The translations under genes and the position numbers were made by a program. From assembly GCF_022539665.2 (NCBI RefSeq), contig NC_081334.1, forward strand, positions 1,674,001-1,738,000: DNA of 64,000 bases. The letters run 5' to 3'. This DNA comes from Daphnia carinata. Lineage: Eukaryota > Arthropoda > Branchiopoda > Diplostraca > Daphniidae. Of this stretch, positions 43,177 through 62,539 are shown one piece after another. Each line of letters starts with the position of its first letter. Position 1 is the first letter of the stretch. The notes under the pieces are model-generated. The model did no database searches, was not told where the DNA came from, and saw nothing but the letters and a program-made list of their open reading frames with translations.

Positions 43177-43244
43177 AAGTCATTATTGGTTGTTGCGCTG
43201 TGAAAATAATACACAATAACGACTTTGTATTACTCAAACATATT
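43158..43244. repeat. Hairpin at the outer edge of the left palindrome arm
   Basis: Positions 43158-43188 and 43214-43244 are reverse complements over 31 bp with about three mismatches, separated by 25 bp. Shared text is AATATGTTTGAGTAATA and the pair AAGTC(A/G)TTATTG. The palindrome boundary at 43177 falls inside the outer half of this hairpin. Confidence 0.8.
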
Positions 43245-43559
43245 AATTTTCTTAAGTTAAATTTTCATTTGGATAAGTACTTTAAATGTTTAAAAACATT
43301 TAATTTGTGGTGGATAAAATTTCTCGTAATGACTTTTGCGTCCACAAGAGGCACCTTAAACAGTGGCTCGTCGGACAGTTTTTTTTTCAGGCATACTTTT
43401 AGATTGGCTTAACGCGTGTAGTCTGCTGTCTACTTTACTCGCTAGATAGACCGTCCTCGCTAGATTTTACTTCTTGACCTCTATATAATCTAATTTGTTT
43501 CATTCTGATCTACATTTTTTCTGTCCAGGGTCATAAGGAAGTGTTTTCTTGTATTCCTA

Positions 43560-45530
43560 GTGTGATTACTTTAAACTATGGTTTTGTTTAACAGTGTGAA
43601 GGACATTTTGCCAGAGTGTCCACAAGCTGGTGAGGGCGGCGGTAGTGGTCCGTTGACGTCACAAAGTAAGATGAAAATATCGAAACATGTGTTCGAACTT
43701 AACTTCTTGGTGCTTTTTGTAGTATGGGGAAGGGGGGACATTTCTCGAAGGATTGTCCACAAGAGGGTCGTGGCGGTGGTGGAAGTCGTACCTGCCAGGA
43801 GATAAACAAAAAACAAAAAAAAACATCATTTTTAGTGCTCATTTTTAATGAAGAAGAGGGCAATGTAGCAAGGGATTTTCCTCAAGGAGGAAGCATTGGT
43901 AGCAGCAACTGTTACAATGTAAACATCAATTATATCTTCACAAAAATATTTTATGTTCTAATGTTCATTGTTTTACTCCTAGTGTAATGAAGCTGACCAC
44001 ACCTCGAAAGGCTGCCTGAATCTCTTCAGTGAATTGACGGAAGATGGAAAGCCACATGAGCAATGCATTCCAGAAGCTGTGACATGAGATGAAAAGGAAC
44101 TGTTTAAGGGCATCGTCTGTGTGGGAACGCTTTATCAATTTTGATAAAGTCGTCCTCCATGTAAGCCATTCCTCAAAACTATATTTTTCTTAACTTATCT
44201 ATTGGGTTTGCTTTAGGCTACAGAAAAAGATGTACCTCAATACAGAATATCATTCGAAGAAGCCAGCCTGCGCCAACTACTACTTCAAAACATTAAGAAT
44301 TCTGACTACATAAAACCAACACCTGTTCAGAAAAGCTTCAGTTGTAGTTTGCCAAAAGAGGTTTAATTGCTTGTGCTGTCACGGGCTCTGGCAAAACGGC
44401 AGTACAATTAATTAACACTGTGTAATTTGAAATCTTGATGCCCTCGTACTGACTTGATTCGAATGGGTCGATATGAACTGGGTAAGTTGAAGTAAAAGTA
44501 ATTTTGAGTGGGCACGCCGGTGATTGCGACTACTAAAAGGTCCAATTGCATCTAAGATACTCAACAAACCCTTCGTCATATTCGTTGATTAAGTCATCTA
44601 AAATTTTACATTTTTTCATGCAGGCGGCGTACTTGGTACCAGTTATGAACATATTGTTAGAACAAGGCGTTGCTGGTGCGTCTCATGCCATGGGGCAAAA
44701 GCCAGAAGTTGTAATTGTCGCACCTACTCGTGAATTGGCCATTCAAATTCACCGCGAGGCGTGTAAATTCTCCTACAGCTCGGTTTTAAAGTCTGTGATT
44801 ATATATGGAGGAACTCTCACGAGCCATCAGCGGTCAAATCTTCAAGCTGGGTGCAATATTTTTGTCGCGACCGCGGGACGATTCAAGGATTTTCTCGACC
44901 GTGAAGTATTTGACTTCTCGGGAGTCAGGTTTTGAATTTTGGACGAAGCTGATCGAATGCTTGATATGGGTTTCGGTCCCAATGTTAAAAAGATTGTCAA
45001 TCATCCAACGATGCATCCGAAAGTATGTCCTCGATGGTTTTTGAGTATGAGATTTGACTGATGTAATACTATTTGTTTCTCTGTAGGGAATCCGTCGTGT
45101 TTGTATGTTTTCGGCTACGTTCCCAGATGACGTACAAGCGCTGGCTGCGACGTACATGGAAGACTACGTATTCGTCACAACAGGCATTGTCGGTGGCACC
45201 AATCCGGATGTTGAACAGCTGTTTTTTCAGTGCTCGAAAAGAGATAAGAGAGCTAAGCTGATCGAAGTTTTACAAGATCTCGGTGATGCCAAGACTATCG
45301 TTTTTGTCGACAGCAAAAAAGACGGCGGATTTCGTCGCTGCATTCTCGTGCAATAACAACTTACAAGTAAGAATCAAAACTGTTGGAATTGGGCAAAATG
45401 TCTTAACTTTAAATGTCTTGTCTACCAGCATCCATGGTGAGCGTAAACGAAAATCGTAAATGTCTCTTCCGAAGCTTCTGTCAGAAGAATATGCTAGCAA
45501 TCAACTCACGAATCATGTAAGGTATGAAAT
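43560..45530 (+). pseudogene. vasa: Vasa/DDX4-like DEAD-box RNA helicase pseudogene, left copy
   Basis: Decayed CCHC zinc-knuckle text appears first: ECPQAGEGGGSGP, GKGGHFSKDCPQEGRGGGG, VARDFPQGG with the ligand Cys replaced by Phe, and CNEADHTSKGC. A spacer DEKELFKGI follows, then a DEAD-box core with ISFEEASLRQLLLQNIKNSD (DEAD-box flank), KPTPVQKSF (Q motif), VTGSGKTA (Walker A), [53 protein letters not shown] and KTIVFVDSKK. HGERKR may be the start of the second helicase domain, which is otherwise missing. Breaks include a TGA before DEKELFKGI, a frame change at INFDKV, a frame change before the Walker A (LAKRGLIACAVTGSGKT versus a TAA frame), and a TGA in GVRF*ILDEAD. Vasa normally acts in germline piRNA and translation control; this copy cannot make a full protein. 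Confidence 0.82.
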
Positions 45531-60186: not shown

Positions 60187-62156
60187 TTTCATACCTTACA
60201 TGATTCGTGAGTTGATTGCTAGCATATTCTTCTGACAGAAGCTTCGGAAGAGACATTTACGATTTTCGTTTACGCTCACCATGGATGCTGGTAGACAAGA
60301 CATTTAAAGTTAAGACATTTTGCCCAATTCCAACAGTTTTGATTCTTACTTGTAAGTTGTTATTGCACGAGAATGCAGCGACGAAATCCGCCGTCTTTTT
60401 TGCTGTCGACAAAAACGATAGTCTTGGCATCACCGAGATCTTGTAAAACTTCGATCAGCTTAGCTCTCTTATCTCTTTTCGAGCACTGAAAAAACAGCTG
60501 TTCAACATCCGGATTGGTGCCACCGACAATGCCTGTTGTGACGAATACGTAGTCTTCCATGTACGTCGCAGCCAGCGCTTGTACGTCATCTGGGAACGTA
60601 GCCGAAAACATACAAACACGACGGATTCCCTACAGAGAAACAAATAGTATTACATCAGTCAAATCTCATACTCAAAAACCATCGAGGACATACTTTCGGA
60701 TGCATCGTTGGATGATTGACAATCTTTTTAACATTGGGACCGAAACCCATATCAAGCATTCGATCAGCTTCGTCCAAAATTCAAAACCTGACTCCCGAGA
60801 AGTCAAATACTTCACGGTCGAGAAAATCCTTGAATCGTCCCGCGGTCGCGACAAAAATATTGCACCCAGCTTGAAGATTTGACCGCTGATGGCTCGTGAG
60901 AGTTCCTCCATATATAATCACAGACTTTAAAACCGAGCTGTAGGAGAATTTACACGCCTCGCGGTGAATTTGAATGGCCAATTCACGAGTAGGTGCGACA
61001 ATTACAACTTCTGGCTTTTGCCCCATGGCATGAGACGCACCAGCAACGCCTTGTTCTAACAATATGTTCATAACTGGTACCAAGTACGCCGCCTGCATGA
61101 AAAAATGTAAAATTTTAGATGACTTAATCAACGAATATGACGAAGGGTTTGTTGAGTATCTTAGATGCAATTGGACCTTTTAGTAGTCGCAATCACCGGC
61201 GTGCCCACTCAAAATTACTTTTACTTCAACTTACCCAGTTCATATCGACCCATTCGAATCAAGTCAGTACGAGGGCATCAAGATTTCAAATTACACAGTG
61301 TTAATTAATTGTACTGCCGTTTTGCCAGAGCCCGTGACAGCACAAGCAATTAAACCTCTTTTGGCAAACTACAACTGAAGCTTTTCTGAACAGGTGTTGG
61401 TTTTATGTAGTCAGAATTCTTAATGTTTTGAAGTAGTAGTTGGCGCAGGCTGGCTTCTTCGAATGATATTCTGTATTGAGGTACATCTTTTTCTGTAGCC
61501 TAAAGCAAACCCAATAGATAAGTTAAGAAAAATATAGTTTTGAGGAATGGCTTACATGGAGGACGACTTTATCAAAATTGATAAAGCGTTCCCACACAGA
61601 CGATGCCCTTAAACAGTTCCTTTTCATCTCATGTCACAGCTTCTGGAATGCATTGCTCATGTGGCTTTCCATCTTCCGTCAATTCACTGAAGAGATTCAG
61701 GCAGCCTTTCGAGGTGTGGTCAGCTTCATTACACTAGGAGTAAAACAATGAACATTAGAACATAAAATATTTTTGTGAAGATATAATTGATGTTTACATT
61801 GTAACAGTTGCTGCTACCAATGCTTCCTCCTTGAGGAAAATCCCTTGCTACAGTGCCCTCTTCTTCATTAAAAATGAGCACTAAAAATGATGTTTTTTTT
61901 TGTTTTTTGTTTATCTCCTGGCAGGTACGACTTCCACCACCGCCACGACCCTCTTGTGGACAATCCTTCGAGAAATGTCTCCCCTTCCCCATACTACAAA
62001 AAGCACCAAGAAGTTAAGTTCGAACACATGTTTCGATATTTTCATCTTACTTTGTGACGTCAACGGACCACTACCGCCGCCCTCACCAGCTTGTGGACAC
62101 TCTGGCAAAATGTCCTTCACACTGTTAAACAAAACCATAGTTTAAAGTAATCACAC
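60187..62156 (-). pseudogene. vasa: Vasa/DDX4-like DEAD-box RNA helicase pseudogene, right copy
   Basis: This is the mirror of 43560-45530 with the same order of zinc-knuckle text, Walker A, PTRELA, DEAD and SATF motifs. The same breaks are present, including the stop in GVRF*ILDEAD and the stop before DEKELFKGI. Small differences are Gly to Arg in the second knuckle and Asn to Thr in EEEGTVARDF. Shared breaks mean the gene was already dead when copied, or that the arms are kept alike by gene conversion. Confidence 0.82.
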
Positions 62157-62539
62157 TAGGAATACAAGAAAACACTTCCTTATGACCCTGGACAGAAAAA
62201 ATGTAGATCAGAATGAAACAAATTAGATTATATAGAGGTCAAGAAGTAAAATCTAGCGAGGACGGTCTATCTAGCGAGTAAAGTAGACAGCAGACTACAC
62301 GCGTTAAGCCAATCTAAAAGTATGCCTGAAAAAAAAACTGTCCGACGAGCCACTGTTTAAGGCGCCTCTTGTGGACGCAAAAGTCATTACGAGAAATTTT
62401 ATCCACCACAAATTAAATGTTTTTAAACATTTAAAGTACTTATCCAAATGAAAATTTAACTTAAGAAAATTAATATGTTTGAGTAATACAAAGTCGTTAT
62501 TGTGTATTATTTTCACAGCGCAACAACCAACAATGACTT

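Follow-up and report, generated by a model that had tools for sequence, protein, structure and literature searches.

What would make a palindrome with two nearly identical arms of more than 8 kb in a genome such as that of Daphnia carinata, and what would keep the arms alike? When the window (the whole 64-kb stretch of DNA that was analysed) was compared with itself by blastn, a single minus-strand match was obtained, between 43177-51392 and 62539-54261. With the base-by-base alignment, this defines a left arm of 8216 bp (43177..51392, plus strand), a right arm of 8279 bp (54261..62539, minus strand) and a loop of 2868 bp (51393..54260). The blastn match spans 8284 columns at 98.96% identity with gaps counted, with 13 mismatches and 6 gap openings, and the alignment shows 13 single substitutions, 4 small indels and 2 length steps of 22 bp and 46 bp, both within a 23-bp minisatellite (14.5 copies in the left arm, 50247..50577, plus strand; 15.5 copies as reported in the right arm, 55075..55429, minus strand). 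The arms are thus about 99% identical around a spacer, and an inverted match of 8.2 kb would lie far beyond chance. As a sequence structure the palindrome is confirmed, with arms 13 substitutions apart, in agreement with the preliminary description of 8.2-kb arms around a 2.9-kb loop. The paired coordinate sums given there (105716-105720, then 105653 in the minisatellite) are also correct, because of the indels and the two minisatellite steps. Among the 13 differences between the arms, 10 are private changes of a single arm; counted over all 13, 5 are left-derived and 8 right-derived. Plain duplication would yield privately derived differences too.

The palindrome is flanked on the left by the exons of a prenyltransferase-domain gene (41391..42675, plus strand; Pfam Prenyltrans, E 7.3e-15 and 1.8e-35) and on the right by an exon of a lactate/malate dehydrogenase gene (63579..63998, minus strand; Pfam Ldh_1 domains). 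The interval between the right arm and the dehydrogenase exon (62540-63200) has no second match among the matches listed (best 40 of 121 candidates), and Rfam and ARAGORN scans of the 64-kb window gave no matches.

The left outer edge of the palindrome is not the end of an element, because the repeat from which the arm is made continues past it for 341 bp, as far as position 42836, where it has its terminus. This terminal part (42836..43176, plus strand), which starts TATGGCAATCCG, lies outside the left arm and is missing at the right arm. Many matches begin at 42836, the flanks at the terminus are unrelated in 9 of the 11 other copies inspected, and MITE-like inverted pairs of the terminus are present at other genome sites. 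The left outer edge itself falls within a subterminal imperfect hairpin of the repeat (43154..43248, or C4:1717154-1717248; a self-inverted match of 76%). In own-genome searches, which score the best candidates and give copy numbers as lower bounds, arm positions 1-6302 were matched on contigs C7 and C10 at 96%, at least 14 further matches cover positions 1-2421 or more at 93-96%, and other copies of the arm sequence are 92-96% identical to it. By these matches the arms are copies of a dispersed repeat, not a unique duplication of the sex-chromosome type. Copies at different sites have inverted termini in common, both ends being seen at C4:2.20 Mb. A possible 6-bp target duplication was found at one of seven MITE copies and none was clear at the other six. 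ORFs were listed for copies L002, L008, L012 and L015 and for parts of the loci C10:5.15 Mb, C5 and C4:2.20 Mb, and as read from their sequences none is an evident transposase.

The repeat holds fragments of two host genes. The first is vasa, one of the genes by which animals make germ cells and silence jumping genes, and central to the piRNA machinery. The captured genomic fragment, with exons and introns, lies at 43535..45444 in the left arm (plus strand), where in a blastn comparison with the intact locus of vasa (L040) arm positions 359-630 match at 81% and 652-2268 at 88%. By the mirror coordinates of the arm alignment the same fragment lies at 60272..62181 in the right arm (minus strand; exon match at C4:1734784). 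The DEAD exon ORF of the left arm (44537-44935, plus strand; Pfam DEAD, E 3.5e-13) is assigned to vasa by its best PDB matches, Bombyx VLG (4d25, E 4.1e-43) and Drosophila vasa (2db3, E 1.8e-40). The intact resident gene, with both DEAD and Helicase_C domains, is found at C4:3.567 Mb; a candidate at C6:3.172 Mb was rejected as DDX3-like by sequence, and the next ones as other DEAD-box proteins, both in our own reading. The arm exons are 91.4% identical to resident vasa (941/1030), with 122 of the 955 exon 21-mers matching exactly and a longest exact run of 51 bp.

The vasa exon of the repeat is present on all ten large contigs, at 150 or more scored places, one of which is the resident gene, which leaves at least 149 other copies; in places the Daphnia vasa copies are tandem. 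The arm copy carries stops and does not have the intact DEAD and Helicase_C domains of a Vasa/DDX4 protein. Among 150 listed matches, two are stop-free over all 111 residues, resident vasa and a copy at C7:9359048 whose stop lies in a different exon. In one alignment each of the 24 non-canonical rows contains one to three stops, and all 11 retrieved copies that had seemed free of stops over part of the exon prove frame-broken (a set that excludes C4:5350807 and C4:5474503, both open up to residue 90). Exon/intron divergence and reading frames were examined for purifying selection on these copies, and none was found: across 16 non-redundant copies, taken without L035, L037 and L041 and without one arm per palindrome, divergence is 0.0464 in exons and 0.0450 in introns, and with those three included it is 0.0586 and 0.0515. 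Reading frames and divergence show that the vasa fragment makes no helicase and that the examined copies are broken and drift neutrally. The germline helicase pseudogene noticed earlier in the arms can thus be identified as a broken vasa.

The second fragment (45602..47716 in the left arm, plus strand) comprises the last exon, that is the 3′ end, and downstream DNA of a gene at C6:10.086 Mb (L052), to which it is related by matches of 84-89% and also by protein search. Mirror coordinates place it at 58003..60114 in the right arm (minus strand; matches C4:1733492-1734126). Most of a 212-aa ORF (45590-46228) falls within the fragment; among 21 copies of it there is no third-position excess (0.045, 0.038, 0.034), and purifying selection on it was not found by this measure. 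The gene itself has a 769-aa ORF with no Pfam match, which may resemble Ki-67 repeats, an impression of ours. Arm-like pieces, including vasa ones, occur directly behind this gene at C6:10.086 Mb, and therefore a copy of the repeat adjoins it.

The loop is asymmetric. Its right part (52058..54260) runs on from the right arm's inner end without a break, an arrangement that six other C4 copies share (87-91%), and its left part (51393..52057) consists of another dispersed repeat that contains a nested insertion. The junction of this left part with the left arm at 51393 has no second match among the matches listed (best 40 of 166 candidates). The nested insertion of 415 bp (51515..51929) is flanked by an 11-bp duplication (51504-51514 and 51930-51940), and its empty site is found on C1 (C1:5987660-5987898), C3 and C10. 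It accounts for the telomere repeats that had been reported in the loop: a CCTAA (TTAGG-like) array is indeed present at 51632-51770, between inverted repeats, and by this position it is part of the insertion, not of a telomere.

Similar palindromes recur in the genome. Leaving out a cluster at the end of C6, neighbouring copies no more than 25 kb apart are inverted in 18 cases and direct in 6. Four of the 18 inverted pairs were set aside (two non-mirror pairs in a nested palindrome at C4:5.03 Mb, C6:5433195/5443089 and one on C57), and the mirror pair C4:5025616/5048280 and C9:8050489/8053280 were added, giving 16. Identity across the vasa stretch is at least 98.99% in 15 of these 16 pairs, with C6:1407354/1416900 compared across 553 bp only, whereas between loci it is about 87-96%; the exception is C8:5593688/5603405 (88.5%). 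The direct pair C10:4702063/4714554 is 100% identical. Partner arms resemble one another more than they resemble other copies, and are sisters on the tree for 14 of 15 inverted pairs (C10:4714554/4724217, which the tree groups unresolved with a third, identical copy, is counted here as sister; C9:1762091/1764402 is too short for the tree and was compared directly) and for all five in a smaller comparison. On this evidence the window palindrome is one of about 15 built from the same mobile repeat.

In five palindromes, 129 private changes are common to both arms, and the arms differ at 4 sites. Over whole arms the identity is in some cases below that of the vasa stretch (98.4% at C4:2.2 Mb; 98.5% for part of C10:5.15 Mb), and the breakpoints vary, lying at arm position 1 in the window, at 245 on C8 and 114 bp past the repeat end at C4:2.2 Mb. 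The palindrome at C10:8.24 Mb has a tract-like step, with an outer 227 bp 93% alike and an inner 3.8 kb 99.76% alike. GC-biased conversion was looked for and not found: 40 W>S and 61 S>W changes are shared by both arms, against 60 W>S and 90 S>W changes in single copies. Of the initial interpretation, recent origin or active homogenisation stands; a singular, sex-chromosome-like palindrome is not supported, given a dispersed repeat with its vasa exon on all ten large contigs and 15 of 16 pairs near-identical.

Taken together, these observations probably reflect a repeat that captures genes and was duplicated in inverted orientation again and again, with arms kept alike by conversion or by very recent duplication. 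A mobile repeat would have captured the vasa fragment and the 3′ end of the second gene as genomic DNA with introns. This repeat spread widely, as the common terminus with different flanks and the vasa exon on all ten large contigs show. Single copies would then have been duplicated in inverted orientation at individual loci, so that two arms came to enclose an asymmetric spacer. What is observed is that the arms are nearly identical at 15 loci, with breakpoints that differ between palindromes, and that only the left-outer and right-inner junctions of the window palindrome recur elsewhere among the matches listed. Gene conversion between arms, or in some cases just very recent duplication, may then have kept them alike. 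Because the vasa fragment makes no helicase and the copies examined are broken and neutral, the palindrome would be a by-product of the spread of the repeat and of the behaviour of inverted copies in replication and repair.

A selfish or regulatory hairpin is a rather unlikely alternative, in which transcripts of the palindromes would fold into long dsRNA, or the copies would feed piRNA production, and the resulting small RNAs antisense to vasa would either lower Vasa and weaken silencing in favour of the repeat (counter-defence) or serve the host in tuning vasa. The arm exons, 91.4% identical to resident vasa with a 51-bp exact run, exceed 90% complementarity, as in the AT-chX case, the 149 or more scored copies besides the gene are often in inverted pairs, and precedents exist. 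In D. melanogaster a portion of nxf2 was taken up by TART-A, which produces antisense piRNAs to this gene, and few such counter-defence strategies are known according to that report (Ellison et al. 2020, PMC7785250). The vasa-like AT-chX repeats silence vasa of a sibling species at >90% complementarity and not their own at 76% (PMC7874207). Against this, exons are conserved no better than introns among the Daphnia copies, and there is therefore no visible selection for targeting; the capture of a second, unrelated gene fragment also fits indiscriminate capture. As with TART-A, a multi-copy mobile element holds a piece of a host piRNA-machinery gene; TART-A, however, is a telomeric retrotransposon with reported antisense piRNAs (PMC7785250), whereas in Daphnia the fragments are carried by a repeat that has inverted termini and often sit in palindromes. 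The amplified vasa-related sequence likewise recalls AT-chX, which is in contrast an X-linked, tandem piRNA cluster with 76% identity to its own vasa (PMC7874207), the Daphnia copies being dispersed, palindromic and 91% identical in exons. We consider it doubtful that the ~150 vasa copies and about 15 long hairpins make dsRNA-derived or piRNA-type small RNAs against resident vasa and so weaken the silencing of the repeat. If they did, the TART-A/nxf2 case would have a parallel in another type of element, and AT-chX-like vasa repeats would have evolved independently a second time.

It is quite improbable that the palindrome is a natural foldback transposon, mobile as a unit, whose very long terminal inverted repeats are the arms. 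Inverted, MITE-like pairs of the repeat terminus do exist, and the terminus is at both ends at C10:8.24 Mb and C4:2.20 Mb, but this reading is set back because palindrome ends and repeat ends do not coincide: the right end in the window has no terminus, the C8 left arm begins at position 245, and the C4:2.20 Mb palindrome extends 114 bp beyond both termini. Arms of the same locus also resemble each other much more closely than arms of different loci do. In several palindromes the arms are identical across more than 1 kb, as might suggest an assembly or library fold-back artefact; this is nevertheless very unlikely, as the window arms are set apart by 13 substitutions, by indels and by the length of the minisatellite, with differences polarisable to either arm, and have unlike flanks with ordinary genes inside a 9.4-Mb contig, and such palindromes recur at many loci in one repeat family with locus-specific breakpoints. 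An ampliconic gene family under selection, like sex-chromosome palindromes with testis genes, would account for arms about 99% identical or more, a germline gene and a 212-aa ORF still open in many copies, but is barely credible with vasa copies broken by stops and frame breaks, neutral exon/intron divergence, no third-position excess in 21 copies of the ORF, dispersal over all large contigs, and sex being set by the environment in cladocerans.

Recurrent inverted duplication remains our preferred explanation, and its carrier resembles Pack-TIR/Pack-MULE elements in that a repeat bounded by inverted termini holds genomic fragments of two host genes, vasa with its introns and the second gene as last exon and downstream DNA; large palindromes are not known as a usual feature of such elements. 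In general, hpRNA loci are inverted repeats matching a gene, as are the Daphnia ones; compared with the Drosophila loci (PMC10292708, PMC10317233), the Daphnia arms are much longer and occur at many loci. The palindromes of mammalian and willow sex chromosomes (PMC8981503, PMC7023750) similarly have arms ~99% or more alike, a spacer and proposed conversion, whereas the Daphnia arms, in which no functional gene was found, lie on several chromosomes and are borne by a mobile repeat. Among the titles and abstract openings of the openly licensed PMC papers searched, none reports a structure like the vasa-fragment palindromes.

Large palindromes are usually discussed as features of sex chromosomes, and the compact crustacean genome described here has about 15. 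Since these derive from one gene-capturing repeat, their formation and homogenisation could be studied with many natural replicates, and as the captured gene is vasa, they would offer a natural test of transposon counter-defence. Clonal rearing and small-RNA sequencing are feasible in Daphnia, which makes a silencing test practical. Whether the vasa hairpins interfere with vasa is now a testable question.

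The preliminary description gave the coordinates of the palindrome and its coordinate-sum arithmetic correctly, as seen in a self-comparison and a base-by-base alignment. The window (C4:1674001-1738000 in the 108-Mb assembly, C numbers being contigs) compared with itself has one dominant self-match, which pairs 43177-51392 inverted with 62539-54261 around a loop at 51393-54260; the alignment contains 13 substitutions and 6 gap openings. Base by base, the arms differ by 13 single substitutions, 4 small indels and length steps of 22 bp and 46 bp, both within a 23-bp minisatellite. 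The interpretation is here widened and partly corrected: this palindrome is one among about 15 vasa-fragment palindromes, whose source is a gene-capturing repeat. In water fleas, sex is generally determined by the environment and not by differentiated sex chromosomes. A second, shorter inverted pair is also present in the window (30053-30499 and 33418-33875, 91% over 458 bp, 2.9 kb apart).

Judged by its matches in the genome, the palindrome arm belongs to a dispersed repeat. Its positions 1-6302 (position 1 being window 43177) are found again at C7:10.55 Mb and C10:8.09 Mb with 96% identity, and at least 14 further matches span arm 1-2421 or a similar stretch at 93-96%. The repeat extends beyond the left edge of the palindrome, out to 42836, where many copies start, and the outer edge of the palindrome lies within its subterminal hairpin. 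The terminus TATGGCAATCCG, scored with up to two letters different, has unrelated flanks in 9 of 11 inspected copies (in two of the nine it lies three bases in), a pattern that the other 2 lack; shorter foldback pairs sharing it look like MITEs. The telomere repeats reported in the loop are a telomere-like CCTAA (TTAGG-like) array, and this part of the claim stands, but the array is not a telomere. It is part of an insertion of 415 bp (51515-51929), whose empty site is seen at C1:5987660, C3:11739399 and C10:1032703. Within the insertion, inverted repeats surround the array, and a duplication of 11 bp flanks the whole (span 51504-51940).

The left-outer junction (arm/terminus) is common to many copies, and the right-inner junction (arm/loop) occurs also in six other C4 copies and on C5, while the own-genome search gave no second match to the left-inner and right-outer junctions among the matches listed. 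This pattern indicates opposite losses in the two copies: the loop side is gone from the left one, which still has the repeat end, and the right one still has the loop side but no repeat end. An inverted duplication, and then probably a loss both at the centre and at one of the ends, would have produced the palindrome.

The DEAD-box ORF of the arm is vasa, and the helicase pseudogene described in the arms is borne out by stops and frame breaks in the copies. The genome has one clearly intact vasa (C4:3.567 Mb, minus strand), whose product has complete DEAD and Helicase_C domains and Drosophila vasa as its best PDB match (7.9e-139); the protein closest to it, annotated as D. carinata, includes the exons read from C4. 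Arm 652-2268 (88%) and arm 359-630 (81%) match the genomic DNA of this gene in introns as well as exons, so the captured material was DNA, not mRNA. Of 18 residues that distinguish the Vasa of D. carinata from that of D. magna, the arm has the carinata state at 11, the magna state at 5 and neither at 2, from which we infer that vasa was captured on the carinata lineage. A second host gene, at C6:10.086 Mb, is also represented in the arm, positions 2426-4540 of which align at 84-89% with its 3′ end and the DNA downstream of it. Arm 5722-7972, which includes the minisatellite, is also found just downstream of intact vasa, inverted and at 70-88%, where it adjoins a remnant of the repeat's terminus at 73% (locus L040, C4:3563501-3572500, minus strand). 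Directly behind the second source gene (locus L052, C6:10083001-10089000) there are arm-like pieces, including vasa exon pieces, and a repeat copy therefore adjoins that gene.

The vasa exon was scored at at least 150 places (the best 150 of 233 candidates), one being the intact gene. All 111 exon residues are covered without a stop in 2 of the 150 rows, intact vasa and C7:9359048, the latter with a stop in another exon. In-frame stops, one to three each, occur in 24 of 24 non-canonical alignment rows, and in the subfamily of the window arm one of them sits at the DEAD motif. By eye, 15 of the 150 rows, intact vasa and C7:9359048 included, are stop-free to residue 90; 11 of the other 13 were fetched for checking, and ten have a common frame-breaking deletion just behind the motif, the eleventh a gap and a stop. 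The shared deletion, set against the stops of the arm subfamily, means that at least two vasa subfamilies were broken independently. Divergence at the codon positions is 0.041, 0.062 and 0.043 among these 11 copies, and 0.039, 0.048 and 0.052 among 16 non-redundant copies related to the window arm (exons 0.0464, introns 0.0450). From their reading frames, the vasa copies are pseudogenes. The 212-aa ORF of the second fragment remains open in many copies, with codon-position divergence of 0.045, 0.038 and 0.034 among 21 copies, whereas the arm differs from the second source gene by 12, 7 and 31 changes (186 positions each). This third-position excess, present against the source gene and missing among the copies, indicates that the second gene is constrained and the copies are not.

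Vasa-exon neighbours within 25 kb are inverted in 18 cases and direct in 6 (the C6 end cluster excluded), and the arm-arm comparison covers 16 inverted pairs. Whole matched arms are 98.96% identical with gaps in the window, 99.3% (7998 columns) and 98.5% (2787 columns) at C10:5.15 Mb, 99.76% at C10:8.24 Mb, 99.97% at C8:3.00 Mb, 99.87% at C5:1.38 Mb and 98.4% at C4:2.21 Mb (vasa stretch 98.995%). In the first five, the vasa stretch differs at 1, 2, 1, 0 and 0 sites, respectively, per about 1.5-1.7 kb; ten more pairs, compared over this stretch, are at 99.1-100% in nine cases and at 88.5% in one (C8:5593688/5603405). Copies at other loci are about 87-96% identical to the window arm. Partner arms are sisters in all five palindromes of a 25-row tree and in 14 of 15 pairs of a 45-row tree, the exception being the 88.5% pair, and five palindromes have 129 private changes common to both arms against 4 sites differing. 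Since the arms are sisters and share private changes, their near-identity is a repeated outcome at separate loci.

We favour, with moderate confidence, conversion at work in palindromes that differ in age: 15 of 16 pairs are near-identical, and at C10:8.24 Mb the outer 227 bp, at 93%, give way to an inner 3.8 kb at 99.76%, with half a kilobase between them absent on one side. Against this reading, or neutral to it, GC bias was not found in the changes, and the 13 substitutions between the window arms, polarised 5 to the left and 8 to the right, are mostly private (10 of 13). Alternatively, old palindromes could have been lost, leaving only young ones.

Other vasa-derived sequences have different arrangements. 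Three copies at C10:4702063, 4714554 and 4724217 (loci L062, L060 and L061) are identical over 1.2 kb, one being direct and one inverted relative to the middle copy, which indicates that direct segmental duplication occurs alongside palindromes. C6:10.28-10.84 Mb holds 32 of the at least 150 scored vasa-exon places in mixed orientation, and the regularity of their spacing (7 of 31 at 9.37-9.40 kb) suggests an amplified array of vasa-bearing units near the contig end (10,897,450). At C47:11321-32382 (locus L036, on a 58-kb contig), a C-terminal piece of vasa occurs seven times in direct orientation at intervals of about 3.48 kb, which is the make-up of a vasa-derived tandem repeat. Thirteen metagenome proteins (P0001-P0013) are 55-89% identical to the vasa exon of the arm; several have an intact DEAD motif, and P0011 and P0012 appear degenerate. 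These matches suggest that other water fleas may have vasa duplicates.

It is possible, by analogy with known systems, that the arm copies silence resident vasa via small RNAs. According to PMC7785250, TART-A of Drosophila captured part of nxf2, a piRNA-pathway gene, and yields antisense piRNAs to it; PMC7874207 describes Drosophila AT-chX vasa-like piRNAs that leave the species' own vasa (76%) unsilenced, whereas the vasa of a sibling species (>90% complementarity) is silenced. Silencing in D. carinata is disfavoured by the lack of extra constraint on the exons among copies and by the capture of a second host gene as well. In its favour, the vasa exons of the arm share 91.4% identity with resident vasa, including exact stretches of up to 51 bp. 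At this level of identity, the D. carinata repeat has the sequence properties of a candidate for vasa silencing.
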